Shown: positions 10,880-27,240 of the stretch, in pieces
Layout: each line of letters begins with the position of its first letter
Position numbering within the stretch: position 1 is the first letter of the stretch
Source of the DNA: Nitrospira sp.
GTDB taxonomy: Bacteria; Nitrospirota; Nitrospiria; Nitrospirales; Nitrospiraceae
Length of the DNA stretch: 45,079 nt
Reading direction: 5' to 3'
NCBI GenBank assembly: GCA_020853775.1
Contig: JADYYH010000057.1
Span: 1 to 45,079 of the forward strand
Notes under the pieces: model-generated
What the model was told of the DNA's origin: nothing
The model's database searches: none
Seen by the model: the letters and a program-made list of their open reading frames with translations, nothing else
Position numbers and translations under genes: made by a program

Positions 10880-10916
10880 GTATCAGATCAGATACGGCAT
10901 GAATCTGATCCGATAC
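10880..10916. promoter_or_regulatory. paired 16-bp GTATC-N6-GATAC sites, enhancer candidate (pair A)
   Basis: Site 1 is GTATCAGATCAGATAC (10880-10895) and site 2 is GAATCTGATCCGATAC (10901-10916). Their starts are 21 bp apart, placing both on one face of the helix. They end 120 bp upstream of the -24 GG of the sigma-54-type element at 11036. The same arrangement recurs at 26284 and 26989. I read them as binding sites for an enhancer-binding protein not encoded in the window. Confidence 0.65.
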
Positions 10917-11035
10917 AGTCCAAGTCGTAGTACGTATATTCAGCCGGGGCCGAATAGAATGAGCGGGACTGCGCATGTCCTTAGAATCTCTACAGATCCG
11001 TTATTGAACTGAGAACGGGCAAACCTGCGCTCGCG

Positions 11036-11050
11036 AGGCACAACCTTTGC
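11036..11050 (+). promoter_or_regulatory. sigma-54-type -24/-12 promoter, locus A
   Basis: AGGCACAACCTTTGC has GGCAC and TTGC with the invariant GG/GC 12 bp apart; only the leading T is replaced by A. Predicted start of transcription is near 11062, 61 nt before the ATG at 11123. Support comes from the enhancer-like pair A upstream and the matching layout at locus B. Confidence 0.6.
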
Positions 11051-11122
11051 GCCTCGAGCCGTGAAAGCAGTTTCCCTAGGAAGCGCACACCGATGGGAGC
11101 ACAGCGAATACAGGGGGGCACT

Positions 11123-11299
11123 ATGTTTGCGCTCCTCTTCCTGTTTCTCGGGGTTCTCTTCCTTCTCGCAGCAGCGGGCCGCATCTGGATCGATGCGACA
11201 CCAGTCGATTCACCCACCATCGATTCAGCGGCTGCGGACAATGCCGGCGAGTCTGTCGCAATGGACCGTCCCTCCAAAGGCGACGATTCGGCCGTCTAG
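11123..11299 (+). CDS. small single-pass membrane protein (58 aa)
   Basis: The 58-aa product begins MFALLFLFLGVLFLLAAAG, one hydrophobic helix, followed by a polar Ser/Asp/Ala-rich tail. The start follows a GGGGGG ribosome site at 11113-11118 and lies 61 nt after the predicted sigma-54 start point. An in-frame upstream ATG at 11093 is less well placed. Family unknown. The helix-plus-polar-tail design is shared with the 41-aa ORF at 26509, which has the same type of control region, although the sequences do not align. Confidence 0.55.
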   Translation: MFALLFLFLGVLFLLAAAGRIWIDATPVDSPTIDSAAADNAGESVAMDRPSKGDDSAV

Positions 11300-11511
11300 C
11301 GCAGATGCTTCCCCCGTCAGACTGCTATATGAACCCAGGAGAAAGGTGTGCCGGGAATCAGATAGATCATCCGTGGGAACCGTAAAGGCGGTCACTTCTG
11401 ACGGAGAAACGATCAGGCTTGCAATCATCTCGCAGCGGATCTGTCTTGGCAGCCACTACAGCCATTTCCTGCATTCCGGAGTGGCTTGAAGGAGGCCGGA
11501 AGGAGCCAGCC

Positions 11512-11661
11512 ATGGATGGTTACTCAGGTTCCGTAGTCCTTTCTCGCTGGGTTTCTTCTCTTCGCGCTACCGATCTACCTATAACAGAGGCAAATTATCG
11601 TGCGGGTGCTGCCGGGCATAATCGTCGGCACGTCATGCTATATCACACAGGCGAGGAATGA
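11512..11661 (+). CDS. possible small protein (49 aa)
   Basis: An ATG follows AGGAG (11501-11505) by six bases, and a second purine run (AAGGAGG) lies just before it. The 49-aa product has no membrane helix and resembles nothing I know. The ribosome site is the main argument for it; the coding nature is uncertain. It lies between the 58-aa ORF and the protease gene on the same strand. Confidence 0.3.
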   Translation: MDGYSGSVVLSRWVSSLRATDLPITEANYRAGAAGHNRRHVMLYHTGEE

Positions 11662-11697
11662 ATACCCTTGAGCACCATGGTCCTAGAGGTGACGGTC

Positions 11698-12393
11698 ATG
11701 AAAAATATCCACAACGGTGTGCCCTCACTCAAGCAATTATGTATGGCGGGCAGTATTGCTGCTCTAACTTGCTTCCTCTCGCATGCCTCGGAGCTCATCG
11801 CAAACGACATGTGCTTCTCCGACGGCACATTCGGTAGCCTCGACGTGACTCAAGTGAAACAAGAGGAAGGGCCATGGTGTTGGGTGGCAAGCACCAAGGT
11901 CTTCGTCGATCGCTTTGACATGAGATCACCGCGGCTGGGGAGCCCCTATAAACAGTGCGAGCTTTACAACATTGGACAGCCGGAGAGAACAAGGGCTCAC
12001 GATTGTTGCAGCAGTCCGGCGCCACGAGGAGAGGCCGAATGTCTCGAGACGGGATGGCCAGATTACATCATGGCACCTCTTGGCATAACGGCTGCTGGTC
12101 AATGGGATCATCTTTCCTGGCAAGCGATCAAAGAACAAATCTGTCCCTCCGATGGACAAAAGGGACAGCCATTTATTTATGTCACTCAAGGCATATCTTG
12201 GCCACCTATTGCTCACACTAATGTCATAAAGGGTTTCATCGAGGATCCGGAGACCGGCACAAAGAAAGTAAGTGTAGATGATCATGAGATCACTGGTTTT
12301 CAAGATCTTGACTATGACTGTTGGTACGTTGAAGTCTGCGCGGGTCACGCTAAAAGGCTTGGAGACCAGATCATTACCTGGACAGGACATTGA
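11698..12393 (+). CDS. exported papain-like cysteine protease
   Basis: 231 aa from the ATG at 11698, chosen because AGAGGTGA precedes it and because it gives a clean signal peptide (to about residue 26). Upstream in-frame starts at 11668 (TTG) and 11677 are weaker. Q55-x5-C61 in VKQEEGPWCWVAS reads as oxyanion Gln and nucleophile Cys of papain-like/C39-like proteases (the pattern Q...WCWAAS). H173 in AHTNVIKGF is the likely catalytic His, with an Asp pair in VDDH following. The mature part has about ten more Cys, suggesting disulfides outside the cytoplasm. It leads a run of three genes for exported proteins. Substrate unknown; the TpsA exoproteins downstream are possible targets, but that is only proximity. 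Confidence 0.7.
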   Translation: MKNIHNGVPSLKQLCMAGSIAALTCFLSHASELIANDMCFSDGTFGSLDVTQVKQEEGPWCWVASTKVFVDRFDMRSPRLGSPYKQCELYNIGQPERTRAHDCCSSPAPRGEAECLETGWPDYIMAPLGITAAGQWDHLSWQAIKEQICPSDGQKGQPFIYVTQGISWPPIAHTNVIKGFIEDPETGTKKVSVDDHEITGFQDLDYDCWYVEVCAGHAKRLGDQIITWTGH

Positions 12394-12430
12394 GGCAACG
12401 ATTAAGCAACAAACTGAAAAGGAACTGCCC

Positions 12431-13219
12431 ATGCGAAGCATCACCTACAATTTCGGTTTGTTTGCGATGATCATGACGGTGATTTTGCTACCTTGCCAAT
12501 CCTATTCTGAAGATGGCCATTCTTCCCAAGAGGACGCTAAACAGGCGCTGCTCTCATTTATTGTACCTAACGCTCCTCCTGAAGCTTTGCAAGCAGCCAT
12601 TGGAGGGAAAAAGGCACTATCTCGTCTACTTAAGCAAAATGAAAGTCATGCGCGAGACTTAGGATTCTCCTCTGCTGCGGAAGCTGATGATAGTCAGACT
12701 GAATTGGGCGAACCGTTCCCATTCTTTTTTATTAGTGTAGACAAATTGAAATCATATACAGAAAAGGCGAACCCAATCCCGTTATTTATTTCTAGCTTAC
12801 AATTTCTATATCCACTCAATGCAGTCGGCTCCGGCAATGGCCCCCCTCTTTCCTCGCTCACCGTCGCCAGGGTTCCCAAACGTGTTGCCCCTAACGAAGA
12901 ATGGCGCGCGATCGGATGGGGAGCCCCAAAACTCATCCGCTTTCTGGTTTCGGCGCAACAAAAAGGTCACGCCTCTTCATCGCGTTTTATCGTGCGCATT
13001 GAAGAACTTGGTCGATATTTTCTGGGCGACTTAAGGGATAAGGAATTGTTCATCATACCTTTAATCGATGATGGGAAATACGGTTTCCTTGCAGGGACCC
13101 CCTTATCCGCTGAAGTCGCCTTTCTGAAACTTGTTCAAGAGGCACAAAGAATCTCCAGGTCGGCTTATCGTAACGAACCAATGAGTACAGACAATTCAAA
13201 AACCAGGAGGTCACCATGA
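12431..13219 (+). CDS. exported protein of unknown function
   Basis: 262 aa from the ATG at 12431, which has AAGGA eight bases upstream and yields a signal peptide (MRSITYNFGLFAMIMTVILLPCQSYS). The open frame extends back to 12278 over the protease gene and that part is not used. The mature protein has no motif I recognise; it has a run of strands with FFFISVDKL, RFIVRIEELG and ELFIIPLIDD. Codon use is more A/T-rich than in neighbouring genes. It starts 37 bp after the protease and overlaps the following lipoprotein gene by ATGA. The tail RSAYRNEPMSTDNSKTRRSP is polar. A partner or inhibitor of the protease is one possibility, with no direct evidence. Confidence 0.6.
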   Translation: MRSITYNFGLFAMIMTVILLPCQSYSEDGHSSQEDAKQALLSFIVPNAPPEALQAAIGGKKALSRLLKQNESHARDLGFSSAAEADDSQTELGEPFPFFFISVDKLKSYTEKANPIPLFISSLQFLYPLNAVGSGNGPPLSSLTVARVPKRVAPNEEWRAIGWGAPKLIRFLVSAQQKGHASSSRFIVRIEELGRYFLGDLRDKELFIIPLIDDGKYGFLAGTPLSAEVAFLKLVQEAQRISRSAYRNEPMSTDNSKTRRSP

Positions 13220-13521: not shown

Positions 13522-13673
13522 TACGCAGCGTTGCATCGGCCCAGACCCAATTGATATCTGGTTTGATGCGCCGGTGAAAACTTTGGGTGACGGACGAAGA
13601 ATTTATAAGAGGAGCGCGCGATGGAGAGGTCTGCAAGGACGTACGGAACTGCATGCCGCTGGGAGAAGATACC

Positions 13674-16600
13674 GTGTTAATCCGTTTCGGCACTGCGGGC
13701 CTCACAGTGCTCGCAGCCGCGGTCACAAGCCAGTTATTGCTATCTGTACCCGTTCAGGCACAAGTTGCGCCCATCACTTCATCAGGGCTCAATACCCAGA
13801 TCAGCGCTCCGATCAACAATCCAGCCGGACAGGTGCAGTACAACATCACGGGCGGAACCAGACCAGCAAACGGGCCCAACCTCTTTCATAGCTTTGGCGA
13901 ATTCAGCATTCCTACTAATAACCTCGCTAACTTCCTAAATGAAACGGCTCTGCCCACCTCCAATATTCTTGGTCGCGTCACAGGCGGCAACCCCTCAACC
14001 ATCTTCGGAATCCTCCAAACCACCGGATTCGGTAATGCCAATCTGTTCCTCATGAATCCGGCAGGGATCGTATTCGGCCCGAATGCCTCCTTGAATGTCG
14101 GGGGATCGGTGAGTTTCACAACGGCTGACTATCTACGATTGGCTGACGGCGCACGATTCACCGCGATTCCCGGACCTCAGGATGCGTCCGTCTCCAGTGC
14201 GCCGGTTGCCGCCTTTGGCTTTCTCGGAACAAACCAAGCTGCCATTACCGTTCAAGGCGGACAGCTGGCGGTCACAGAAGGGCAACTCATCTCACTCGTC
14301 GGTGGAGACATTACGATCGAGGGAGTCACACCAGCCTCCGAGACCGTCCAGCCTGCTCGAATCTACGCCCCTGGCGGCCAGATCAACTTGGTGAGCGTGG
14401 CCTCACCTGGTGAGGTCCTCACTCCCAGCCTGCAATCCGAGCAGAACATCAATGGGCAATCCTTCACGAACATGGGCAACATTTCACTCTCAGGGGGCCC
14501 GGCATTGGATGTCTCGGCGAATGCTGCCGGCACGATCAAAATCCGTGGTGGCCACCTCGTGATCGACCATGCTTCCATGGTAGCAGATACGGCCAATGCA
14601 ACTGGTGCGGCAATCGCGATCGACATCAACACTACCGAAGGGGTGCTCATATCGACTGTTGACGCTCCGGCTTTAACCGCCAGAACAACCGGTGCAGGCA
14701 ATGCCGGCGAGGTTCGAGTCTCCTCCGGCCAGATGGACATCAGCGGAACCGCAGTCGACAGCTTTCTCTATTCAATCATTGATACGCACACTTCAGGGTC
14801 AGGAAATGCGGGCAACGTTCGCATCAACACCGGTGATCTAACAGTCAGAGGCGATCCTCTTGGCGGTCTTACACTATTTATTGAGAGCGGGACCAGTGGG
14901 ACCAATCCAGGACGCGGCGGCGATGTGATGATTACAACACACACGATTGAGACCCAAGATACAAGCATCTCTACGGGCAACCTCTCAGCCTTCTTGCTTG
15001 GCCAGGGAGGCGCGAGTTACGGCGGCAATGTCAGCATTACAGCAGATAGCGTCAAGATGACACTTTCCCAAATCGTGACCGACTCATTCGACTTCGAGCA
15101 GCAGATCGGAAGGGCCGGCGATATCACCATCAATGCTCGTGACATCAATCTGAACAACACAGCATTCAGCGCTACCGGTCAGGAGCGAGGCGGCGCCATC
15201 ACAATCGACACAAATCACCTGGTGGCGGACAATTCTCAGATCGTCGCGCAAACCGTTCACGAGCCTGGCGGAAACATCACTATCACCGGGGATATCATCG
15301 AATTAACCGAAGGAAGCAGTTTCGTGTCTAGCACAGGAGGTGACGGAAATGCAGGCCTGATTACGATAACAGCCAATGATCACATCGGACTATTACGCGG
15401 GAGTGCTGCCGATCGGCCAAGTGGAGTATTTAGCAATTCATTCGGGACCTTCGGATCTCTTGGAAGTGCCGGAGATATCGCGCTGATCACCCCAAGATTA
15501 GAAATGGCCGGTGGGGCGCGTATTAACACGACCACCGCGTCCAGCGGTCGTGGCGGCAATGTGACGATCCATGCTACCGACTCAGTTTCCATGGCGGGCG
15601 AGACCGGTGGTTTCGCTCCAGAACCCCTATTCTCGCTTGGAATCCTTCAGCCAAGCGGGATCTTCACCCTGACTATCGGTGGCAATTGTTTAGGACCTTG
15701 TGGCAATGCTGGGAACGTTTCGATTTCGACCAGCGCTCTCACGATGGGGAACGGAGCTCAGATCAATAGCGGCACGAGCAGTACAGGGCAAGGTGGGAGT
15801 ATCACCGTGAATGCCCGGGATACCATCTCCATCAATGGCACATTGAGCAATGGCCAGCCGGCTGGCATGCTAAGTCGTACAATTGGATCTGAACCGGATT
15901 CTGGGACCGGCGGGAATATACTTCTTAATGCTGGCCAGTCTGTTTCATTAACCAATGGCGCCGGCGTTTCAGCCAGCAGCACCGGCCCTGCGAATGCCGG
16001 TAACATTGCCATCAATGCCGGCGCGCAGTTCTTCAGCCAAAATGCCGCCGTGACGACAGCAGCAGCCCAGGCCAGCGGCGGTAATATCACCGTGCAGGCC
16101 ACCGATTCCATCCGACTCATTAACAGTCAATTGAACACCTCGGTCCAGGGCGGCCCCAATACATCGGGCGGAAACATCCTCCTCGATCCGGCCATTGTCA
16201 CCCTCCAAAATAGCCAAGTTACGGCTCAGGCCGTGCAGGGGCAAGGCGGCAACATCAGCATCATCGCAGGGACCTTCCTTGCCGACCAGACCAGTATCGT
16301 GAACGCGTCGTCTCAATTCGGACTGAGCGGTACCGTGACTATTCAATCCCCGGTTTCCAGCTTGAGCAACACGCTGGCGCCCCTGCCGCAACGCCCCCTG
16401 CTGGCTCAGCCGTTGCTCACCCAGCGGTGCGCAGCGCAAATAGGCGGCCAATTGAGCAGCCTCGTGCTGGCCGGACGGGAAGCGCTCCCGGTCGAACCGG
16501 GCGGATGGCTGATGAGCCCTCTCGCCAAGATGACAGGCGACGAGCCGATCTCGCATGGTCACGTCGCCACAAATGAAGTGTTCAAACTTCCGCTTGAAGA

Positions 16601-16682
16601 GCCTATGCGACCAGGGTCGGATCAACGTAACTGGTGGTTACCACGAGAGGGCACCGACCAAGCAGCCGGTTGCGGGTCCTGA
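13674..16682 (+). CDS. TpsA-type exoprotein, filamentous-hemagglutinin-like (copy 1)
   Basis: 1002 aa from the GTG at 13674, which has GGGAG eight bases upstream and gives a signal peptide ending VPVQA-Q. An ATG at 13653 is the alternative. The TPS domain begins ITSSGLNTQI and contains LFHSFGEF, NLFLMNPAGIVFGPNA and LNVGGSV, the haemagglutination-activity domain that TpsB recognises. The body is a Gly/Asn/Thr/Ser-rich beta-helix with repeating GN(A/I)...I units. The C-terminal 200 residues closely match copy 2. Two Cys are conserved at the end, in QRCAAQ and in the last five residues (AAGCGS). The protein should be secreted to the cell surface through the TpsB at 20294. A 19-codon ORF (13621-13680, AGGAG before its ATG) ends overlapping the GTG and could couple translation. 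Confidence 0.87.
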   Translation: MLIRFGTAGLTVLAAAVTSQLLLSVPVQAQVAPITSSGLNTQISAPINNPAGQVQYNITGGTRPANGPNLFHSFGEFSIPTNNLANFLNETALPTSNILGRVTGGNPSTIFGILQTTGFGNANLFLMNPAGIVFGPNASLNVGGSVSFTTADYLRLADGARFTAIPGPQDASVSSAPVAAFGFLGTNQAAITVQGGQLAVTEGQLISLVGGDITIEGVTPASETVQPARIYAPGGQINLVSVASPGEVLTPSLQSEQNINGQSFTNMGNISLSGGPALDVSANAAGTIKIRGGHLVIDHASMVADTANATGAAIAIDINTTEGVLISTVDAPALTARTTGAGNAGEVRVSSGQMDISGTAVDSFLYSIIDTHTSGSGNAGNVRINTGDLTVRGDPLGGLTLFIESGTSGTNPGRGGDVMITTHTIETQDTSISTGNLSAFLLGQGGASYGGNVSITADSVKMTLSQIVTDSFDFEQQIGRAGDITINARDINLNNTAFSATGQERGGAITIDTNHLVADNSQIVAQTVHEPGGNITITGDIIELTEGSSFVSSTGGDGNAGLITITANDHIGLLRGSAADRPSGVFSNSFGTFGSLGSAGDIALITPRLEMAGGARINTTTASSGRGGNVTIHATDSVSMAGETGGFAPEPLFSLGILQPSGIFTLTIGGNCLGPCGNAGNVSISTSALTMGNGAQINSGTSSTGQGGSITVNARDTISINGTLSNGQPAGMLSRTIGSEPDSGTGGNILLNAGQSVSLTNGAGVSASSTGPANAGNIAINAGAQFFSQNAAVTTAAAQASGGNITVQATDSIRLINSQLNTSVQGGPNTSGGNILLDPAIVTLQNSQVTAQAVQGQGGNISIIAGTFLADQTSIVNASSQFGLSGTVTIQSPVSSLSNTLAPLPQRPLLAQPLLTQRCAAQIGGQLSSLVLAGREALPVEPGGWLMSPLAKMTGDEPISHGHVATNEVFKLPLEEPMRPGSDQRNWWLPREGTDQAAGCGS

Positions 16683-16722
16683 AAACGGCCACGTCGACCA
16701 GCGGGTAGCCTAAAAAGCTTCT

Positions 16723-19700
16723 ATGGTCAGTAGACGAATAGGGTCGCGTCAGATGGACTGTCCACAGCTGTTGGCTGCGCTGCTCGGCTGTTGGCTCATC
16801 CAATCTATTGTGCCCGATGTCGGCTACACTCAGACGCCTGGCCCCATCACGTCTTCGGGGTTGAATACAACCGTGACGCAACGCGGCCCCGTCTCTGACA
16901 TCACCGGCGGTACGCGGCCCGGCGGCGGGCCGAATCTGTTTCACAGCTTCGGTGAATTCGACATCCCCGCGAACCATGTCGCCAACTTTGTGAACGACGC
17001 CGCGCTCCTCACCTCCAATATTTTCGGGCGCGTCACCGGCGGCGATCCATCGACTATCTTCGGCACCCTTCAAACCACCGGCTTCGGCAGCGCCAATCTG
17101 TTCTTAATGAATCCGGCGGGCATTGTGTTCGGCCCCAATGCATCCTTGAATGTCGGAGGCTCGGTGAATTTCACGACAGCGGATTATCTGCGGTTAGGAG
17201 ATGGGGCCCGGTTTACCGCCATTCCCAGCTCGCACGATGTCGCCCTCTCTAGCGCACCGGTGGTCGCATTCGGATTTCTGGGATCGAACCCGGGAGCGAT
17301 CACGGTGCAGGGCGGCCGACTGGCGGTGTCCGAGGGGCACGCGCTCGCACTCGTCGGGGGGAACATCGACATTCGCTCCGGCTTGCTGGAGAATGGTACA
17401 TCTCAGCCCGCTCGACTGTCGGCTCCCGCGGGACAGATCAGTCTACTGAGCGCGGGATCTGCCGGTGAACTGACAACAACTGGTCATGCCGGGGCCTCTG
17501 GCAATCCGGCCGTTCAGGGGACCGCTCTGGGATCGATTTCGCTCACCCAAGGCACCGTGCTGACGACGAATGCCGAGTCCGGCGGCCGCATTGCCATCCG
17601 CAGCGGACAATTCACCATGGAAAATGCCCGCCTTGAGGCGAGCACGTCGTCCACTGCCCCGCATGCCGCCTCGGCCTCGTCGGCCGAGGCGATTTCTATC
17701 CAAGGCGATGCCGTGACCCTCTCGCAGGGGACGAGCGTCATCGCCTCCACCAGCGGCGGCACAGTAGGAGATATCCGCGTTGAGGCGGGCACCTTGCGCA
17801 GCAACGTCGCCCGAGACGGCACGCCTCTACCCGGCGCCGCGCCCGTCACCATCGAAAGTACCAGTGCAGGCCAAGGCGGCGCCGGATCGATTTTCATCGG
17901 CGGTAAGGCAGGAGAGCCGGCGGACGCGGTCTTGTTGAGCAATACCCGCATCGTGACGGGAGTCGGCCAGACCGCAGACCCGATGGCGGCGCCCGGCAAC
18001 ATCGAGATGACGGCGCGGCAAGTCGAGTTGGCGAACGGGACCCTCCTCCGGTCCGACACCACGGGCGGCGCAGATGCCGGAGCCATCAGGTTGAACGTGG
18101 ACAGCCTGAAAACCCAGGCGGGACCGGATGGGCGTGTCACGTTCTCGGCGGACAGCAATTGTGGGACCCAATGCTTCGGCGGGCAAGCCGGCGACATTAC
18201 AATACAAGGTCTTCCTGACCCCGCACACAGCGTCACGCGACACTACTCATTTATTTTCACACCCCACCTGGGGCGCACGGATCCGTTGACCGTCTATGTT
18301 GCGCGGCGGCTGGACGTGCAGGGGGCCGATCTCCATTCACAAGCCACAAGTAACGCCCCTGGGGGGAAAGTGATCCTGCGGGGGCAAGAACAGGTGGCGT
18401 TGACCGATACGACCGTGTCAGTCGCCACGCAGGATTTCTACCTGGACGGGACGAAGCCCAACGGTCAGCCGGCACGGTACCAGGGGTTGAGTAACATCGA
18501 CATTCTGTCATCGGACATCGTCCTGAACGATAGCACCATCAAGGCCGATGCGCTGGTGTCGGATATCGGCGCCTGCCCTACGTGCCAGGGAGGACCAACC
18601 GCGGGAGAAATTTGGTTGCGGGCGGACAACTCCGTGACCGCTAATAATTCGTTCATCACCAACACGAGCCGGGGAAGAGCCCAAGCCGGTCTCACGAAAA
18701 TCATCGGAGACAATTATTTTACCGAAGGCGCCATCTGGGACACGCTCTACCCCGACGCACCGACGCGTACGGTCCGGTTGACCAATTCGGAGGTCACGGT
18801 CGAAGCTCAACATTCCGGGCTGCCGGGGTACCTGAGAATTCGGGCCGACAACGTCATCCTCGACCATACCATCTTGAACTCGCGAGCCAATGATGTGTCC
18901 AACGTCAGAGATTCTGCCGGTCAATTGATCGATGTCGTCGGCGCGGGCGAACGGAGTCCCGCAAGCACGGATAACAGAAGCGTCCAGGGGAGCACGCTCA
19001 TTTCCGCAAGAGTCCTGGACATCACGGGCGGAGGCATTGTCGCGCCCACCAGAGGCAGCCGCATCGGCAGCCTCATTCAGCTGCAAACCGATGTGCTGAC
19101 GACCAGGCCGGGAACCGGACCGGGAGGGACGCTGGCCGCGCGAAGGATCTTGAACCCGGATGACCCGGCTCGCGTGGTCATTTCCAGCAGCAGCACGGGC
19201 ACCGGTGGCGCAGGAATGATCTCCATCAGCGGATTTAGACCGCCGGCGCGCGGGGATACGCCCTTGCCGCCCGGTACTTCCGTCAACCTCACGGGAACCG
19301 ACCTGCTCACCAACACCAATATCGATGCCCTGGGTGGGAAAATTCTCCTGAAAGCAAAAGGTACCGTCGAGCTGCACGATTCGACGATTTCAGCCAATGT
19401 GACGGATGTGCGGCCGCAGTCGATGACCCTGCAAGAGCAAGGCGGCAACATCGATGTGATCGCCGGAGACTTTTTGATGCAGGGAGGCAGGGTGTCGGCC
19501 CTGTCCCGCGGTACTCAGAACGGCGGCAATATTACGATGACTGTTCAGGGGCCGATCGTGGTGAGTGACGGTGCAAGTGTTTCCGCCAGCAATACCGGTT
19601 CGGCCAACGCCGGCGATATCGTCATCAAGGCCGGCTCCCATTTGCAGATGCAGCAGGCGTCCGTCACGACACAAGCGGATCAGGCCAGCGGCGGCAACAT

Positions 19701-20292
19701 CACGCTTCAGGCCACCGACTCGATCCGACTCGTGAACAGCCAGCTCAACACCTCAGTCCAGGGCGGACCCAGTACGTCCGGCGGGAACATCACCATCGAC
19801 CCGGCGGTCGTGACGCTTCAGAACAGCCAGGTCCGGGCTGAAGCGGTCCAAGGGCAGGGCGGGAACATCACCATCATTGCCGGGACCTTTCTGGCCGACC
19901 CGACGAGCGTCGTCAGCGCGTCATCTCAGTTCGGCCTGAGCGGCACGGTGAATATTCAATCGCCGGTGTCGAGCTTGAGCAACACCTTGGCCACCTTGCC
20001 GCAGCAACCACGACAGGCGCAGAATCTCCTCCGACAACGCTGCGCAGCCCAAACCCATGGTCAATTGAGCAGCTTCGTCATGGCGAGCCGGGATGCCCTT
20101 CCGGTCGAACCAGGCGGATGGTTGATGAGTCCCCTGGCGTTTCCAGTCAACGAGGGGTCTTCTGCGCCGGTCGCCCCGCAGGCGTTTGATCTCTTGGGGC
20201 AGACGCAAGCGCTCGCAGAGCCGCGGGGTGAACAGTTGAATTCTTCGCGCCAACGAAGCGTCTCCGAGTGGGCGGCCGGTTGCCGATCATGA
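16723..20292 (+). CDS. TpsA-type exoprotein, filamentous-hemagglutinin-like (copy 2)
   Basis: 1189 aa. Same plan as copy 1: signal peptide (start at 16723 or ATG 16753), TPS domain with ITSSGLNTTV, LFHSFGEF, NPAGIVFGPNASLNVGGSV, a long beta-helix and a C-terminal region (from about DSIRLVNSQLNTSVQGG) very similar to copy 1. The middle is different and longer, and includes YTPD-type and Cys-containing inserts (DSNCGTQCFGG, GACPTCQGG). It also ends with QRCAAQ and AAGCRS. The gene is 40 bp after copy 1 and one base before the tpsB start. The two are ancient tandem duplicates, judging by about 80 percent nucleotide identity in the shared 3' region by eye. Likely a surface adhesin or biofilm matrix protein; the ligand is unknown. 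Confidence 0.88.
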   Translation: MVSRRIGSRQMDCPQLLAALLGCWLIQSIVPDVGYTQTPGPITSSGLNTTVTQRGPVSDITGGTRPGGGPNLFHSFGEFDIPANHVANFVNDAALLTSNIFGRVTGGDPSTIFGTLQTTGFGSANLFLMNPAGIVFGPNASLNVGGSVNFTTADYLRLGDGARFTAIPSSHDVALSSAPVVAFGFLGSNPGAITVQGGRLAVSEGHALALVGGNIDIRSGLLENGTSQPARLSAPAGQISLLSAGSAGELTTTGHAGASGNPAVQGTALGSISLTQGTVLTTNAESGGRIAIRSGQFTMENARLEASTSSTAPHAASASSAEAISIQGDAVTLSQGTSVIASTSGGTVGDIRVEAGTLRSNVARDGTPLPGAAPVTIESTSAGQGGAGSIFIGGKAGEPADAVLLSNTRIVTGVGQTADPMAAPGNIEMTARQVELANGTLLRSDTTGGADAGAIRLNVDSLKTQAGPDGRVTFSADSNCGTQCFGGQAGDITIQGLPDPAHSVTRHYSFIFTPHLGRTDPLTVYVARRLDVQGADLHSQATSNAPGGKVILRGQEQVALTDTTVSVATQDFYLDGTKPNGQPARYQGLSNIDILSSDIVLNDSTIKADALVSDIGACPTCQGGPTAGEIWLRADNSVTANNSFITNTSRGRAQAGLTKIIGDNYFTEGAIWDTLYPDAPTRTVRLTNSEVTVEAQHSGLPGYLRIRADNVILDHTILNSRANDVSNVRDSAGQLIDVVGAGERSPASTDNRSVQGSTLISARVLDITGGGIVAPTRGSRIGSLIQLQTDVLTTRPGTGPGGTLAARRILNPDDPARVVISSSSTGTGGAGMISISGFRPPARGDTPLPPGTSVNLTGTDLLTNTNIDALGGKILLKAKGTVELHDSTISANVTDVRPQSMTLQEQGGNIDVIAGDFLMQGGRVSALSRGTQNGGNITMTVQGPIVVSDGASVSASNTGSANAGDIVIKAGSHLQMQQASVTTQADQASGGNITLQATDSIRLVNSQLNTSVQGGPSTSGGNITIDPAVVTLQNSQVRAEAVQGQGGNITIIAGTFLADPTSVVSASSQFGLSGTVNIQSPVSSLSNTLATLPQQPRQAQNLLRQRCAAQTHGQLSSFVMASRDALPVEPGGWLMSPLAFPVNEGSSAPVAPQAFDLLGQTQALAEPRGEQLNSSRQRSVSEWAAGCRS

Positions 20293-20293
20293 C

Positions 20294-22090
20294 ATGTCAC
20301 GCCGGCATTCCAGCACAGAGGTGGATGAATTGCGGGTTCATCGACTCAATTTACGCTCTCTCTGCGCGAGCCTGGTGATGTGCCTCTGTCTTATGGAGGA
20401 GGCAGCGCTGGCTCAAATAGCGCCCCCGCTCCCGCCGATCTTCGATCCGACCGGGCGATCGGGGAAACCGCCTGCCCCGTTAAAAGAAGATTTCAAAGCT
20501 CCTCCGACGGAGCCTCCCAGTTCGATTCTGCCGGAGGTGCCGGCGACACCACAACAACCGTCCGGCAATCGATTGGGAAGTATCCGCGTCTTCGTGCACG
20601 ACATCCACGTGTCCGGCAGCACCGTTTTTTCCGATACTGAGCTGGCCGAGGTCATCGCCCCCTATCGCAATCGTGAACTGACCAGCGACGATCTCGAACG
20701 GGTCCGGCTCGCCCTCACCCTCTTGTACGTGAATAACGGCTACCTCACCTCCGGAGCCGTCATCCCCGACCAGGACGTCTCGTTGGGCACCATCGTGATT
20801 CAGATGGTGGAGGGCAAACTGTCGCGCATCGATGTCGAAGGCAACGAATGGTTTCGCAGTTCGTATCTGCGCGATCGAGTCGCGCGAGGCCTGTCGACGC
20901 CACTCAGCATCCAGCCGCTTCAGGAGCGCATCCAATTGCTGCAGCAGGATCCGCGTATCGAACGGATCAATGCCGAATTGAGACCGGGAGACGTTCGGGG
21001 CGAGAGCGTCCTGAACGTGCGAGTGAAAGACGCTACCCCCTTCAAAGCCTGGCTGGAATTTAATAACTATCAAACGCCGGTGGTGGGCGCAGAGCGGGGC
21101 CTGGCGACACTGGCGCATCAGAATCTCACGGGCCATGGTGATCAGTTCGTGTTTACCTACGGTCGTTCCAGCGGGGTGAATCCAATCATCGATACCTCCT
21201 ACAGCCTACCCCTCAACTCGTATGACACCACGCTCACGGCCTATTATCGGAAGAACGCGTTTCTGGTCGTGGAGGATCCGTTCCGGACCCTCGACCTGAA
21301 TGTCGATACCCAGATCATCGGTCTCGCGCTCCGTCAACCGGTGTATCGTACCGTTACCGACGAGTTGGCGGTGTCTCTCGTGGGAGAACATCTGTATCTC
21401 AAGACGACCTCCGCCTTCGATGCGCCCGGCCTCCCGTCTCTGTTTATTCCCGGCTCATCCAACACCGGTGTGGCCACCGTCAGTGCCCTGCGGTTCCTCC
21501 AGGAATACACCCATCGCTCTCCGTCATTGGTCTTCGCCGCCTTGTCCCGGTTCAGCGTTGGTCTGAATGTGCTCGGAGCCACCGTCAATACCGGACCTCT
21601 GCCGGACGGCCAGTTTTTTTCGTGGTTGGGGCAGGCCCAAGTCGTGAAACGATTGGATGACTGGTGGGGCGTGCAGTTGTTCGGGCGCGTGGCGGCCCAG
21701 GTGGCGAACGACCGGCTCTTTCCTCTGGAACAAATGCCTGTCGGCGGGCGCTTCAGCGTGCGCGGATATCGAGAAAACACGCTTGTGCGGGACGATGCCG
21801 TGCTGGCTTCATTCGAATCGCGATTTCCCTTACTGCGGTTCGCATCCGGGGAAGACCGGCTGCAATTCGCGCAATTCGTCGATTTCGGCCATGCGTGGAA
21901 CGCCAAAGGCGAGACACTCGACCCGCAAACCCTGGCAAGCGTCGGCGCTGGCTTGCGTTGGATGATCCTGCCTCAGGAACGGGCCCGCTTCGAAGTGTAC
22001 TGGGGACAGCAGCTCAATCATGTCCGTGGCGGCGAGGGCAACCTCCAGGACCACGGCATCCATCTGCAACTCGTCGTGCAGGTGCTGTAA
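20294..22090 (+). CDS. TpsB outer-membrane pore of two-partner secretion (ShlB/FhaC/HecB type)
   Basis: 598 aa. Signal peptide (to about ALAQ), a Pro-rich linker (PPLPPIFDPTGR), two POTRA domains (about 95-245) and a 16-strand barrel. The lid-loop motif VRGYREN (about 488) is diagnostic of the Omp85/TpsB superfamily. The chain ends LQLVVQVL. The start codon follows the TpsA copy 2 stop by one base, so translation is probably coupled. It should export both TpsA proteins, which share the same TPS-domain sequence. Directly after the stop codon lies a 120-bp palindromic repeat. Confidence 0.92.
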   Translation: MSRRHSSTEVDELRVHRLNLRSLCASLVMCLCLMEEAALAQIAPPLPPIFDPTGRSGKPPAPLKEDFKAPPTEPPSSILPEVPATPQQPSGNRLGSIRVFVHDIHVSGSTVFSDTELAEVIAPYRNRELTSDDLERVRLALTLLYVNNGYLTSGAVIPDQDVSLGTIVIQMVEGKLSRIDVEGNEWFRSSYLRDRVARGLSTPLSIQPLQERIQLLQQDPRIERINAELRPGDVRGESVLNVRVKDATPFKAWLEFNNYQTPVVGAERGLATLAHQNLTGHGDQFVFTYGRSSGVNPIIDTSYSLPLNSYDTTLTAYYRKNAFLVVEDPFRTLDLNVDTQIIGLALRQPVYRTVTDELAVSLVGEHLYLKTTSAFDAPGLPSLFIPGSSNTGVATVSALRFLQEYTHRSPSLVFAALSRFSVGLNVLGATVNTGPLPDGQFFSWLGQAQVVKRLDDWWGVQLFGRVAAQVANDRLFPLEQMPVGGRFSVRGYRENTLVRDDAVLASFESRFPLLRFASGEDRLQFAQFVDFGHAWNAKGETLDPQTLASVGAGLRWMILPQERARFEVYWGQQLNHVRGGEGNLQDHGIHLQLVVQVL

Positions 22091-22092
22091 TA

Positions 22093-22212
22093 GGATGGTG
22101 AACAAGTCCGCCAGCTTTGTTCTCGCATCGCTCAGAGGCTCAACGTACCGCAAGGGTACGCCTTGCCTCCTCGCATCGCTGCGGCCGCGCTGGACGGCCT
22201 TTTTGACCATCC
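22093..22212. repeat. 120-bp imperfect palindromic intergenic element (copy 1)
   Basis: The ends are GGATGGTGAACAAGTCCGCC and, read on the other strand, GGATGGTCAAAAAGGCCGTC. The centre is GTACC-GCAAG-GGTAC. Most of the length can fold into one long hairpin that ends in CTTTTTGACC on the plus strand, so it may also stop transcription after tpsB. A diverged copy in opposite orientation is at 41765-41948. The wording matches an intergenic repeat I associate with Nitrospira genomes. It is probably a MITE- or REP-like element; it has no ORF. Confidence 0.7.
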
Positions 22213-22310
22213 TTCACGTGTCTCCTGTGTTGACTATTGAAGTCACGGCCATGCAATAGAGGTTTTCAGCATCCTGCCTGATAAGGCGCCCGCGACGGAA
22301 AGGGTTTGCA

Positions 22311-24623
22311 ATGAGAACCTGGGCTCATGCACACATTCCACAGGCATTCGGCCTCTGCATCATGTTCCTGCTTTCCTGTGCGTTGTCTTTCGCTGCCGAG
22401 ACCAGCCCGTCCGCCGATGAGCTCATGCAACGCGGTCGTTCGGCTGCCCAGCAGGGATCACTGGAGGAGGCACTGGTCGCCTGGAAGGAAGCCGCACGGC
22501 TATACGATCAAGCCGGCCAGACTAAAGGGCACCTCCAAGCGCTCACGCATGCCGCCTATGCCGCCCGCACCCTGGGCCATCTGAACCAGGCCTTTCTCCA
22601 ACAGGAATTGGCCCTGCACCTCGCTCGCCAGACGGGTGATCCCCACTGGCTGGCGCTCACTCTTTCCGAGCTAGGCAAAACCTATGTGACGAACCATCAA
22701 TACGACACGGCGTCGGAGTATCTGTCGCAAGCGAACGAGATTGCGCAGTCTCAGCGTCTCAAGGCGCTGTCGGCCGCGCTCCAGAATGATCTCGGCATCG
22801 TCCGGGCCTTGCAGGGCCAGTCCCAGGAAGCGCTGGCCGCATTTCAAGCCGGCGCAACACGAGCGCAGGAAGAAGATCTTCGCATGTTGGCCGTTCGTGC
22901 CCATGTCAACGCTGCGAGGGTCGCCGTTCGACTGACACGATTCGAAGAGGCCGCATCGGCCTTAAATGAGGCCGGCAAGATTCTCTCGGCGGCTCCGGCG
23001 TCGCACGAGAAAGCGGATGGACTCGTCAACCTGGCCTTGGGATATCGCGATCTCGCGCCGGTGCATCCCGACGCTCACGCCGGCTCACTGACGAAGGCTG
23101 CGGCCCTGCTGCAAGAAGCGGCCACGCTGGCGGAAACGCCCGGTAATGCGCGCCTCGCCTCATACGCCTATGGGTACCTCGGGCAGCTCTATGAGACTGA
23201 ACGACGGTTCAATGAGGCGCTGCAATTCACCCGAAGAGCCGTCTTTGCCGCGCAATCCGCCCGCGCTCCTGAATCGCTGTACCGCTGGCAATGGCAAAGC
23301 GGCCGTCTGCTCACGCGCCTGGGCAAGCTCGATGATGCATTGTCGGCCTATCACGAAGCTGCGATAACCCTGCAACCGATCAGAGCTGAGGTGACGTTCG
23401 CGTCACAGACGTCGCTGGATCCCGGCTACCCCTCGATTCGCTCGTTGTATTTTGAGTTGGCCGATCTGCTGCTGCAACGAGCGGCTTTGATGGGGGATGA
23501 CCGTGAGGCTGAGCCCTATTTGAAGGGCGCGCGGGACGCGATTGAAGCCTATAAGGCGGCCGAGCTCCGGGACTATTTCCGCGACGATTGCGTGGACCAG
23601 ATGCAGGCTCGTATCACCAAACTCGACGCCGTCTCCACTTCGACCGCCATCATTTACCCCATCATCTTCAGCGATCGCACCGAACTGCTCGTGAGTTTCC
23701 CTGACGGCCTCCATCGATGGTCCGTGCCGGTGACGGCGGCGGCCCTGACCGACGAGATCCGCAGCTTCCGCCGTATGCTGGAAAAACGGACCACCCGCGA
23801 GTACTTGCCCCATGCTCAGCAGCTCTATGACTGGTTGTTGCGGCCCCTTGCCGAGGACCTTCGCACACACCACGTGGATACCTTGATTTTTGTTCCTGAT
23901 GGCGCGCTTCGGACGATCCCGATGGCCGCACTCCACGATGGCACCCAGTTCCTCATCGCCCAGTACGCCGTGGCGATGACTCCCGGTCTGGATTTGACCG
24001 ACCCTCGCCCCATCAATCGAACCAAGGCTCAACTCCTCTCCAGCGGGTTGACCCAAGCGGTACAAGGCTTTCCTCCCCTACCACATGTCGCCGATGAAAT
24101 GGATCAGATCCAGTCGCTGTTTAAAGGCGTGCAACTGCTCGATCATAACTTCGTCACGACGCGACTCGAAGGCGAGTTGAAGGATGGCCGCTACAGCATT
24201 CTGCACATTGCCACGCATGGCCAGTTTGCCACGGACGTGAATCAGTCCTTTTTGCTGACGTTCGACGATCGGCTGACCATGTCACAGTTAGAACGGCTGG
24301 TGGGTCTGTTTCGCTTTCGCCAGGAGCCCCTGGAGCTGCTCACGCTGAGTGCCTGTCAGACCGGCATCGGGGACGACCGCGCCGCGCTGGGCCTCGCCGG
24401 AATCGCGGTAAAGGCAGGAGCCAGAAGCGCGCTCGCCACGCTCTGGTTCATCAATGACGACGCCTCGTCCGAACTCGTCTCGGAATTTTACCGTCAACTG
24501 CATGACGCGTCGATCTCGAAGGCGCGAGCCTTGCAAAAGGCACAGCTGAAATTGCTCTCGGATCGCGTCTATGAACATCCGGCCTACTGGGCGGCGTTTC
24601 TGTTATTGAATAATTGGCTATGA
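22311..24623 (+). CDS. exported TPR-CHAT caspase-like protease
   Basis: 770 aa. Signal peptide (about 1-28, LSFA-A), about eight TPR units (to roughly residue 400) and a C-terminal CHAT domain (about 490-770). The catalytic dyad of the caspase/separase clan is intact: H636 in HIATHGQF and C682 in LSACQTGIGDD. The wording AALGLAGIAVKAGARSALATLWFI is classical CHAT. In cyanobacteria and some other bacteria, secreted CHAT-TPR proteins lie next to TPS exoproteins and DUF928 genes, as here. It likely acts in the periplasm or outside and may process or release TpsA or a partner. The start has GGAAAGGG upstream. The stop overlaps the next gene (ATGA). Confidence 0.88.
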   Translation: MRTWAHAHIPQAFGLCIMFLLSCALSFAAETSPSADELMQRGRSAAQQGSLEEALVAWKEAARLYDQAGQTKGHLQALTHAAYAARTLGHLNQAFLQQELALHLARQTGDPHWLALTLSELGKTYVTNHQYDTASEYLSQANEIAQSQRLKALSAALQNDLGIVRALQGQSQEALAAFQAGATRAQEEDLRMLAVRAHVNAARVAVRLTRFEEAASALNEAGKILSAAPASHEKADGLVNLALGYRDLAPVHPDAHAGSLTKAAALLQEAATLAETPGNARLASYAYGYLGQLYETERRFNEALQFTRRAVFAAQSARAPESLYRWQWQSGRLLTRLGKLDDALSAYHEAAITLQPIRAEVTFASQTSLDPGYPSIRSLYFELADLLLQRAALMGDDREAEPYLKGARDAIEAYKAAELRDYFRDDCVDQMQARITKLDAVSTSTAIIYPIIFSDRTELLVSFPDGLHRWSVPVTAAALTDEIRSFRRMLEKRTTREYLPHAQQLYDWLLRPLAEDLRTHHVDTLIFVPDGALRTIPMAALHDGTQFLIAQYAVAMTPGLDLTDPRPINRTKAQLLSSGLTQAVQGFPPLPHVADEMDQIQSLFKGVQLLDHNFVTTRLEGELKDGRYSILHIATHGQFATDVNQSFLLTFDDRLTMSQLERLVGLFRFRQEPLELLTLSACQTGIGDDRAALGLAGIAVKAGARSALATLWFINDDASSELVSEFYRQLHDASISKARALQKAQLKLLSDRVYEHPAYWAAFLLLNNWL

Positions 24624-25381
24624 CAGAGTTAGAGAAAAAAGGCACTCATTGGGCTAGCTGGCGCCAGTGCGTTATCGCTCCGATACTTGGAGCCACAGTC
24701 CTTTTCGCCGCGTCGCTGAGTGAGGCGACTGCGGCAGAGGTACAGGCAGAGCATGACCTCCCGCAGTACAATGTGCCGCAGAAGATGACCCCCCGAGCCC
24801 GCTTAGGGGGAAGTTTGCGGGGCGGCGAAGGCGAAGATCCTGCGGTCGCTGCGCTTGTCCCTGACCATGTCGGCATTACCGTCAAACAACATCCGGCATT
24901 GAACTGGTTCTTATCCAAGCAGACTTCGTTGCCGATCACCTTCACACTGATCGATGAGCGCTCCATCCATGCCTTGGTTGAACGGCCCCTGGCTCCCCCC
25001 CATCAGGCCGGAGTGCACACCGTCAAGCTCGACGATTTGGGATTCGCGCTGCAAGCCAACGTGCAATACCGCTGGTATATCTCGGTGATCAAAGATGCCG
25101 GGTCGCCTTCACAGGATATCGTGACCGGCGGAATGATCGAACGCTGCGAGTTCAACGAGTGTTCGATATTGGGCGCCATGACGACCTGTACCCGCGACGC
25201 CGTCATGGCCAGTGCTGTCAAGGGATTTTGGTACGACGCGATGGGCTGCCTCTGCGATCTCATCGCATCCGATCCGGCAGACACGACCCTGCGGAAACAG
25301 CGTGCCGCCTTACTCAAGCAAGTGGGCCTGCACGATGTGGCGGACTGGGATCTCGCGCAATCCCATGCCCGGCAGCGGTGA
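24620..25381 (+). CDS. DUF928 family exported protein (copy 1)
   Basis: 253 aa from the ATG that overlaps the CHAT stop codon; the TTG at 24614 is less likely. After a signal peptide (to about ATAA) come the DUF928 marks: PRARLGGSLRGG, ALVPDHVGITVKQHPALNWF, YRWYISVIKD and DIVTGGMIERCE. The family has no known biochemical role, but is found in TPS/CHAT loci. The C-terminal part AVKGFWYDAMGCLCDLIASDP looks helical, followed by a short HTH-free tail. Translational coupling to the CHAT gene suggests a joint function. Confidence 0.82.
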   Translation: MTELEKKGTHWASWRQCVIAPILGATVLFAASLSEATAAEVQAEHDLPQYNVPQKMTPRARLGGSLRGGEGEDPAVAALVPDHVGITVKQHPALNWFLSKQTSLPITFTLIDERSIHALVERPLAPPHQAGVHTVKLDDLGFALQANVQYRWYISVIKDAGSPSQDIVTGGMIERCEFNECSILGAMTTCTRDAVMASAVKGFWYDAMGCLCDLIASDPADTTLRKQRAALLKQVGLHDVADWDLAQSHARQR

Positions 25382-25384
25382 CGA

Positions 25385-26125
25385 ATGCCTTACGTTCGAA
25401 TCTTTTTCCTGATAATCCTCACGATCACCTGGCTGACCGGCGAGCCTGCGTCACGATTTCTTGGCAGCCCCCCAGGCAGCATTGCCGCCGAACCGAGTGC
25501 CCTTCCCAAATGGCGCATGCCAGAGTACAAACCAAGAAAGGCCGACACGCCAAGGGCTCGCCTCGGCGGACACATCCGCGGAGTGGAATCAGGAGGCCCT
25601 GTCCTCATTGCTCTCGTGCCCGATCACATTGCCTTTACGGTCAAGACTGATCCCACCCTGTGTTGGTATCAGTCTTTGCACACGTCTCGACCGATGGTCC
25701 TCACAGTAGTCGATTCCCGTGGAATCCGCCCTATTCTTGAACAGTCACTGCCCTCGCCTGGTCGTCCGGGGATTCACTGCCTGAGACCGCGAGAATATGG
25801 GGTCGAATTCAGAGCAGAAGAATCCTATCGATGGTATGTGACGGTGGTAATGGACCCCACCAGACCATCCCTCGACGTGGTCGCCGGTGGCATGATCGAG
25901 CGCATCTCCCTGGACGAAGCATGCGCCCTCGGCATGCCCTGCCCTTCATCTGCTTGTGATACCGACGGCATCTATCGCTACGCCGAGTCAGGTCTGTGGT
26001 ACGACGCCATTGCTTGTCTGGTCGACCTGATGGAACAGGACTCTGATAAAGATCGTGTGCGGCTGATGCTCGACCATCTGCTGCACCAGTCCGGCGTACA
26101 TCTGCCAGGAGAGTCGTCGCCTTAA
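25385..26125 (+). CDS. DUF928 family exported protein (copy 2)
   Basis: 246 aa, starting three bases after copy 1. Signal peptide (to about ASRF/IAA) and the same pattern: PRARLGGHIRGVESG, ALVPDHIAFTVKTDPTLCWYQ, YRWYVTVVMDPTRPSLDVVAGGMIERIS and a helical ESGLWYDAIACLVDLMEQDSDK. Roughly 40 percent of positions agree with copy 1 by eye, so it is an old tandem duplicate. It is the last gene of the TPS/CHAT run. Confidence 0.82.
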   Translation: MPYVRIFFLIILTITWLTGEPASRFLGSPPGSIAAEPSALPKWRMPEYKPRKADTPRARLGGHIRGVESGGPVLIALVPDHIAFTVKTDPTLCWYQSLHTSRPMVLTVVDSRGIRPILEQSLPSPGRPGIHCLRPREYGVEFRAEESYRWYVTVVMDPTRPSLDVVAGGMIERISLDEACALGMPCPSSACDTDGIYRYAESGLWYDAIACLVDLMEQDSDKDRVRLMLDHLLHQSGVHLPGESSP

Positions 26126-26283
26126 TCTCGACATCAGACGTACTGGCGCCTTTCATCCTTCGCCGTCAATGTTTCGAGTCGTACTCCGGCTCACCGCCCT
26201 TCGCCATGACAGGACATGTAACCAGTCGATTGATGGAGCTCATCTGATGTTCCACAGTTAGGGACAGCGCTCTGCCCGTTCTG
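26126..26283. other. intergenic, nothing recognised
   Basis: The 3' flank of the DUF928 run. No gene and no clear terminator hairpin was seen before the enhancer-like sites at 26284. Confidence 0.4.
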
Positions 26284-26320
26284 GTATCTCATCAGATACG
26301 CCTTGCATCTGATCCGATAC
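26284..26320. promoter_or_regulatory. paired 16-bp GTATC-N6-GATAC sites, enhancer candidate (pair B)
   Basis: Site 1 is GTATCTCATCAGATAC (26284-26299) and site 2 is GCATCTGATCCGATAC (26305-26320), starts 21 bp apart as in pair A. The second sites of A and B differ by one base only. The pair ends 96 bp before the -24 GG of a consensus sigma-54 promoter. Confidence 0.7.
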
Positions 26321-26415
26321 AGTAAGCCGCGCACCGCGTGAGACCGCGCCGTTTTCTCCCCCAGACTTTCGAAAGATTTTATCCATCGAACCGGAGTCGT
26401 GTGCACCAATCGTCG

Positions 26416-26431
26416 TGGCACGGCTGTTGCT
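26416..26431 (+). promoter_or_regulatory. sigma-54 -24/-12 promoter, locus B
   Basis: TGGCACGGCTGTTGCT is a full match to TGGCACG-N4-TTGCW, with GG at 26417-26418 and GC at 26429-26430. Predicted start of transcription near 26442, a leader of 67 nt before the ATG at 26509. Confidence 0.8.
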
Positions 26432-26508
26432 GCACAGGGCGACGTAGACCATTTTGGGGCGGCCGTAGAACAAGAGAGTCCCCCCTTCGAAATAGAAAGG
26501 AGCCTGAC

Positions 26509-26634
26509 ATGGAACTCGTCATGGGCGGTCTCCTGGTGGGCGTCAGTGGCATGTTAGCCGTATTGATTGTCGCGGTATGGAAAGACAGCGCCGCGCATCA
26601 CTCCGAGGCGCATCCCTCACAGCGGAGGATATAG
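26509..26634 (+). CDS. small single-pass membrane protein (41 aa)
   Basis: 41 aa: a hydrophobic helix (about 5-24, GGLLVGVSGMLAVLIVAVW) and a polar His/Ser/Arg tail. AAAGGAG lies seven bases before the ATG. It is the first gene after the locus-B sigma-54 promoter. Too short for family assignment; the placement and ribosome site make it credible. It may be a small regulator or assembly factor of a membrane complex, which is a guess. Confidence 0.6.
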   Translation: MELVMGGLLVGVSGMLAVLIVAVWKDSAAHHSEAHPSQRRI

Positions 26635-26692
26635 CCGTCTGACGTTCTTTTGGAGGAAGCGGCGCCTCCTACAATATGAAGCTAGAACGGGT

Positions 26693-26722
26693 CGAGAGGC
26701 GTACACCTCCATACGCCTCTCG
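26693..26722. promoter_or_regulatory. perfect 11-bp inverted repeat before the RHH gene
   Basis: Arms CGAGAGGCGTA (26693-26703) and TACGCCTCTCG (26712-26722) flank the loop CACCTCCA. It ends 17 bp before the ATG at 26740. As DNA it could be the operator of the ribbon-helix-helix protein just downstream. As RNA the loop CCTCC could pair with the AAAGGAG ribosome site at 26727-26733. No T-run follows, so a terminator is unlikely. Confidence 0.5.
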
Positions 26723-26739
26723 TGCAAAGGAGTTGCACC

Positions 26740-27021
26740 ATGAACCGATTCATCTATTTGAGACCCCAAAAACGGCAACGCATGACCGTCAGCCTGCCAG
26801 CAGACCTTTTAGAACGCATGCGCGACGCCGCGTACTGGACCTCCGGGACTACCATGGCCGGGCTCATATCCTCGGCAATTGAAGATCTACTCCACAGTCT
26901 GGAATCGCAGAATGGCCGCCCCTTCTCTCCGCGGCTCCAAGACCTCAAGCCAGGCCGGCCGCGATCCTCAAGATCGACTCAGCCGTCTGTATCTGAAACC
27001 ATACAACCTGTATCCCGTTAG
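26740..27021 (+). CDS. ribbon-helix-helix (CopG/Arc-type) DNA-binding protein
   Basis: 93 aa from the ATG at 26740, which has AAAGGAG seven bases upstream; the GTG at 26722 lies inside the inverted repeat. Residues 15-51 fit an RHH fold: strand RMTVSLP, helix ADLLERMRDAAYWTSG, helix TMAGLISSAIEDLL. The tail is basic and disordered (PGRPRSSRST). Probably a small transcriptional regulator, perhaps autoregulated through the inverted repeat. It is 105 bp after the 41-aa gene. Its last codons overlap enhancer pair C. Confidence 0.7.
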   Translation: MNRFIYLRPQKRQRMTVSLPADLLERMRDAAYWTSGTTMAGLISSAIEDLLHSLESQNGRPFSPRLQDLKPGRPRSSRSTQPSVSETIQPVSR

Positions 27022-27025
27022 ATAC
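26989..27025. promoter_or_regulatory. paired 16-bp GTATC-N6-GATAC sites, enhancer candidate (pair C)
   Basis: Site 1 is GTATCTGAAACCATAC (26989-27004) and site 2 is GTATCCCGTTAGATAC (27010-27025), starts 21 bp apart. They overlap the 3' end of the RHH gene. The outer arms match pairs A and B while the six inner bases differ, which argues for a two-fold binding site and not a copied repeat. They end 114 bp before the weak -24 element at 27139. Confidence 0.6.
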
Positions 27026-27138
27026 GCAGAGCTGCTTCAAGATTCTCCTCCTCGCCTTCCTTCGTGCCATGATCTTCCAAATCGCCTAGATCCTTCCGGA
27101 ATCCCAACCCGCCGTTTCATTCTCCAGATGCGTAGCGC

Positions 27139-27153
27139 AAGCATGCCTTTTGC
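27139..27153 (+). promoter_or_regulatory. possible sigma-54 promoter before the TonB receptor genes, locus C
   Basis: AAGCATGCCTTTTGC has a good -12 (TTTTGC) and a degenerate -24 (AGCAT for GGCAC). Its position fits the pattern of loci A and B: about 115 bp after the paired sites and with a predicted start near 27165, 76 nt before the ATG at 27241. On sequence alone it would be weak. Confidence 0.4.
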
Positions 27154-27240
27154 GTCAGATTTTTGTGGGCACAGCCGGGCTCGCTTCCTTTCTCTGTCAG
27201 ACAACGTCCGATGTCGCCGTTAGAGGGCTCAAGGTATGCC

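Follow-up and report, generated by a model that had tools for sequence, protein, structure and literature searches.

Tandem GTATC-N6-GATAC palindromes found upstream of genes for envelope and secreted proteins in Nitrospira probably serve as upstream activating sequences for one or more FhlA-type enhancer-binding proteins (EBPs) that activate sigma-54 promoters. Three such operator pairs are present in the analyzed window, a 45,079-nucleotide stretch of DNA from a Nitrospira sp. genome of 4.25 Mb in 121 contigs. Nitrospira is a main nitrite oxidizer, and little on its gene regulation was found in the papers searched; these, which included few subscription journals, contained no description of the motif or of a Nitrospira sigma-54 regulon. 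The Nitrospira regulon itself is new, whereas the sigma-54/EBP type of regulon is already known. Being defined by sequence, comprising some twenty promoters and conserved in the genus, it offers testable targets and a candidate activator family and would link sigma-54 to the nitrifier surface, that is, to adhesins, receptors and exoenzymes. Along with it come two small membrane proteins and an off-consensus sigma-54-like promoter, all of them conserved.

The operators, promoter elements and genes concerned, all on the plus strand of the window, are:

10880-10916, plus strand: operator pair 1, GTATCAGATCAGATAC-5-GAATCTGATCCGATAC, with an offset of 21 bp; the second palindrome is a GAATC variant
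11036-11051, plus strand: -24/-12 element of promoter 1, AGGCACAACCTTTGC, 119 bp after pair 1
11123-11299, plus strand: gene for a small single-helix protein of 58 aa, MFALLFLFLGVLFLLAAAGRIW..., located first behind promoter 1; congeners encode similar small proteins
13587-16682 and 16723-20292, plus strand: two TPS-domain exoprotein genes
20294-22090, plus strand: ShlB/FhaC-type transporter gene
26284-26320, plus strand: operator pair 2, GTATCTCATCAGATAC-5-GCATCTGATCCGATAC; the second palindrome is a GCATC variant; kept in congeners
26416-26431, plus strand: -24/-12 element of promoter 2, full consensus TGGCACGGCTGTTGCT, 95 bp after pair 2
26509-26634, plus strand: gene for a small single-helix protein of 41 aa, MELVMGGLLVGVSGMLAVLIVAVWKDSA..., located first behind promoter 2 and conserved among congeners
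26989-27025, plus strand: operator pair 3, GTATCTGAAACCATAC-5-GTATCCCGTTAGATAC; the first palindrome is GTATC-N6-CATAC
27139-27154, plus strand: non-canonical -24/-12-like element of promoter 3, AAGCATGCCTTTTGCG, 113 bp after pair 3
27241-29328, plus strand: TonB-dependent receptor gene, target of promoter 3

The coordinates that a sequence-only reading of the window had given for the three pairs and the -24/-12 elements were all correct on re-check, as were its leaders of 61, 67 and 76 nt to the ATG codons at 11123, 26509 and 27241 (predicted starts near 11062, 26442 and 27165). Each pair consists of one perfect palindrome and one with a single mismatch, which always falls in the inward-facing arm. 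Across the window, matches to GTATC-N6-GATAC with at most two mismatches number 27, compared with 11.9 expected. Pair 3 overlaps the 3' end of an open reading frame (26740-27021), so that invariant operator arms sit within coding sequence; the small protein encoded by this frame shows a weak ribbon-helix-helix match (E=0.001, below the cut-off).

A clear excess of the motif over chance was found in the window's own genome, where perfect palindromes number 32 versus 1 for a reversed-pattern control, and the pair pattern with at most three mismatches occurs 8 times versus 0 in the control; pairs no more frequent than chance, the refuting outcome named beforehand, are thus clearly not what is seen. 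About six of the perfect single sites are apparent chance matches inside genes. Perfect palindromes were present in all 28 congeners searched (14-38 per genome versus 0-2 for the reversed control), and other genera of the order contain either 10-22 or, in the remainder, 0-7. When strict tandem pairs were sought among 84,980 genomes, about two thirds of the loci among the matches listed belonged to Nitrospira or other Nitrospirota; those outside Nitrospirota, also among the matches listed, were scattered and included several contigs of one Bacteroidaceae assembly.

The spacing within pairs is narrowly confined. With gaps of 0-30 bp allowed in 29 genomes, all perfect tandem pairs listed have a gap of 4-7 bp, the controls giving zero, and the 76 unique pairs are distributed over gaps of 4, 5, 6 and 7 bp as 9, 24, 35 and 8, respectively. 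Among pairs with one mismatch, for which offsets of 16-46 were searched, 69 of 75 have an offset of 20-23 and six one of 44-46, as expected from triple arrays. The mismatches lie in inward arms in 60 cases and in outward arms in 9, counts that include orthologs and are not independent. Offsets of 20-23 correspond to about two helical turns; thus, the 21-bp offset, previously described as fixed, holds for the three pairs in the window but is neither special nor a rule in Nitrospira genomes.

Phylogenetic footprinting in related genomes, which had been proposed as a check, revealed conservation of all three promoters. In 8 other Nitrospira genomes, pair 1 is kept 5' of the small-protein ortholog; over eight relatives, the footprint of promoter 1 comprises the pair, an element that reads [AT][CT]GGCACAACC[CT]TTGCGC or differs little from it, and a small protein with a single helix. 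The footprint of promoter 2, traced in about ten relatives, consists of the pair, an element that fits the consensus fully or nearly so, and a small protein beginning MEL[VI]MGGLLVG.... At promoter 3, aligned over 22 genomes, all 20 pair-arm positions are invariant and the offset is always 21. Downstream, the block AAGCATGC[C/A]TTTTGCG, which in the window begins at 27139 with AAGC and is preceded by C or T, is 98% identical over the 22 genomes, compared with 52% and 56% in the flanking stretches. This element has AG in place of the consensus -24 GG, one G being missing, and the AG is itself conserved. Judging from its identity relative to the flanks, the element earlier described as weak is therefore under strong constraint despite AG for GG. 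The inner six bases of the palindromes do vary between promoters, as had been noted, but are largely kept within orthologous promoters, where they are 79% identical, compared with 69% for the spacer and 45-48% for the flanks.

To relate the pairs to promoters, we used a simple score for TGGCACG-N4-TTGCW within 30-180 bp of a pair. A score of at least 13 was obtained for 49% of pairs, mostly at 70-130 bp from the pair, versus 6% of random positions, whereas about half of the pairs had no match at this score; in the window's own genome, a score of at least 12.5 was reached by 16 of the 21 sites that are paired or plausible. Three features of a sigma-54/EBP regulon are in place, namely, -24 (GG)/-12 (GC) elements at looping distance (with AG at promoter 3), a repeated dyad operator 5' of the promoter kept across species, and, as detailed below, a family of EBPs whose occurrence follows that of the operator. 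The presence of rpoN in the genome is implied by 33 full-length EBP genes, and sigma-54 polymerase would start at the -24/-12 elements. The tandem palindromes would act as upstream activating sequences: an EBP bound to them would activate, through DNA looping, sigma-54 promoters approximately 50-150 bp away. Two of its dimers would sit next to each other, separated by about two helical turns (offset 20-23 bp), an arrangement that would favour assembly of the ATPase ring. Such a circuit would switch on envelope and secreted proteins and would be conserved in Nitrospira and some other genera of the order.

The sequence-only reading had placed the EBP of an undescribed sigma-54 regulon outside the window. 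Indeed, none of the 33-35 sigma-54 activation-domain matches in the window's own genome (G000) lies on the contig, and this result, together with the excess of pairs and the footprints, supports the proposal. When the EBPs of six genomes were compared, only the FhlA-type group had relatives in all three genomes with sites and in none of the three without. When genomes were scanned with an HMM of the FhlA-type HTH (pattern GPxGAAxxLGLxPSTLxSRMxKLGIxRP), each of the 19 in which site density is raised gave strong matches and none of the 8 others did, one of these yielding a weak match (E=1e-8). Site density was associated with the presence of this HTH (Mann-Whitney p=1.8e-6; outside the genus p=6e-4; both uncorrected for relatedness). 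In G047, a genome from a different family of the order, a single FhlA-type HTH is accompanied by 10 sites; G029 encodes three FhlA-type EBPs yet has only 6 sites. Seven FhlA-type EBPs are encoded in the window's own genome and 3-9 in most Nitrospira genomes sampled. They combine a GAF or PAS sensor, the Sigma54_activat domain and the FhlA-type HTH, as expected of the FhlA-type EBP superclass. From these data, we infer that the activator is one or more FhlA-type EBPs (GAF or PAS sensor, AAA+, HTH), which would act on a small-molecule signal through the GAF or PAS domains.

Among them, the strongest single candidate is the double-GAF clade containing L025 (contig C3 of G000). L025 shares its domain make-up with Escherichia coli FhlA (two GAF domains, an AAA+ sigma-54 activation domain and a Fis-type HTH), and it aligns over the whole FhlA model; however, its 606.6 bits are under the curated cut-off of 830 and thus do not place it in the equivalog NF011958, and the targets considered here are genes for envelope and secreted proteins rather than hydrogenlyase genes. 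Every Nitrospira genome in the partially sampled EBP tree is represented in this clade except G001 and G011, from which only some FhlA-type copies were fetched, and no single clade of that tree covers all genomes with sites. Tentatively, and with less confidence than in the general reading, paralogous FhlA-type activators might share one operator type and discriminate promoters by the inner six bases, forming a branched signalling layer for the nitrifier surface that would also drive the small membrane proteins and the non-canonical AG/GC promoter. One FhlA-type EBP gene of G000 lies about 5 kb from an operator pair (L058, 1102-7722, contig C17), and similar linkage, with 6-7 kb between the HTH match and the pair, was observed on contigs of G005, G011 and G026.

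Other readings of the pairs were weighed against the proposed one. Identical phasing at several places in one genome would also be produced by dispersed copies of a repeat, or could reflect a structural or methylation motif with no regulatory role. However, inner bases and spacers differ between promoters, the gaps vary by 3 bp only, and orthologous positions are kept genus-wide while the flanks diverge; the footprints refute this explanation, the probability of which we consider negligible. If, instead, the palindromes were operators of an ordinary repressor or activator on sigma-70 promoters, the -24/-12 matches would be coincidental, in keeping with the finding of a strong match at only half of the pairs. 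Such coincidence is highly improbable, given that the matches occur at eight times the random frequency and cluster at 80-100 bp, and that the -24/-12-like element of promoter 3 is, besides the pair, the sole invariant block from operator to gene in 22 genomes.

A further reading keeps the sigma-54 regulon but assigns its activation to a different class of EBP, such as the two-component response regulators, the presence of which would then have been misjudged. This is unlikely, albeit far less so than the two preceding explanations. The genome holds many activation-domain matches, several of which are 83-95% identical in the congener G017, and the FhlA-type family is split, with one member located beside a promoter without the operator. 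Nevertheless, no other EBP of G000 has an ortholog in G017, G047 and G044 while being absent from G054, G041 and G034. Furthermore, the operator-adjacent EBP gene on contig C4 of G000 has an ortholog in just one (G007) of the 26 genomes searched and thus is not the conserved activator; its candidacy as an autoregulated master regulator was rejected. That gene (L055, 254-2530) lies 3' of an operator and a short open reading frame and encodes an EBP that carries a GAFTDA variant and whose receiver-like N-terminus matches no Pfam family. The preferred reading remains activation by FhlA-type EBPs.

Besides FhlA, two described systems can be compared with the proposed regulon. The PEP-CTERM/PrsR regulon of Proteobacteria has an operator with TTTACA at its end, positioned 32-92 nt ahead of the sigma-54 site (Haft et al. 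2006, PMC1569441); its EBP, inferred from phylogenetic profiles, is the response regulator PrsR, and its targets are PEP-CTERM proteins (PMC1569441). The likeness consists in an operator of about 17 bp, sometimes repeated, 5' of -24/-12 elements at many scattered genes for surface or secreted proteins, and one Nitrospira target is an XrtA-system polysaccharide deacetylase. By contrast, the Nitrospira operators are GTATC-N6-GATAC pairs and the candidate EBP is of the FhlA type. No PEP-CTERM tails were detected at the loci by a crude pattern scan, and none of the 8 conserved EBPs scanned matched the PrsR model at E <= 1e-140. A PrsR/PEP-CTERM regulon was rejected on both motif and targets.

The second comparison is with Nitrospira moscoviensis, in which NifA-like and sigma-54-dependent regulators flank nxrAB (PMC6606698). 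Likewise, an FhlA/NifA-like EBP gene (GAF/AAA+/FhlA-type HTH) is located directly upstream of an NxrA-like gene in the window's own genome (L366, 10318-15820, contig C11). However, the region upstream of this nxrA-like gene contains a -24/-12-like element and no GTATC pair, and regulation of nxrA via the GTATC operator was rejected for this reason. An FhlA-type EBP beside nxrA without the operator means that the family as a whole has no single specificity and that its members need not all use the operator. The NxrA-like gene (molybdopterin, Tat signal) has a formate/nitrite transporter gene nearby.

As judged from the genes behind the operators, the regulon appears to control TonB-dependent receptors, two-partner-secretion (TPS) exoproteins, lipases, peroxidases, proteases and conserved small membrane proteins. 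Three smaller open reading frames separate the small gene behind promoter 1 from the TPS cluster in the window, whereas a TPS gene lies directly 3' of the promoter 1-type small gene in N. defluvii; promoter 1 therefore probably reaches the cluster, and the TPS exoprotein genes with the ShlB/FhaC-type transporter gene (13587-22090) are its probable distal targets. Elsewhere in the window's own genome, an operator and a sigma-54-like element precede genes for a Tle1-like phospholipase, a patatin-like protein, an animal-type haem peroxidase, a metallopeptidase-like protein, a CSLREA/choice-of-anchor protein, the XrtA-system polysaccharide deacetylase and several proteins with no recognized domain, and a gene for a trypsin-like protein lies behind an operator with a weak -24/-12 match. 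Operators in N. defluvii are found at orthologs of several of these targets (patatin-like, Tle1-like and metallopeptidase-like) as well as at genes for a TPS exoprotein, its transporter and a tyrosinase-like protein, the last three named by eye from sequence. The envelope and secreted protein targets fit with sigma-54 as a controller of the bacterial exterior, a general view set out in PMC3162934.

The region 13587-26125 of the window encodes, besides the two TPS-domain exoproteins and the ShlB/FhaC transporter, a CHAT/TPR protein and two DUF928 proteins. This combination of proteins is known mainly from cyanobacteria.

Outside the genus, sites with -24/-12 elements in G047 precede genes for a TonB receptor, a beta-barrel protein and a helix-hairpin-helix protein; the TonB receptor is related to that of the window, and with its gene are found a GTATC palindrome and a -24/-12 element that is strong. 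The sole FhlA-type EBP of this genome (L375, 4748-9017, contig C38) has PAS domains and is encoded near a formate/nitrite transporter gene, a location that could hint at nitrite as the signal.
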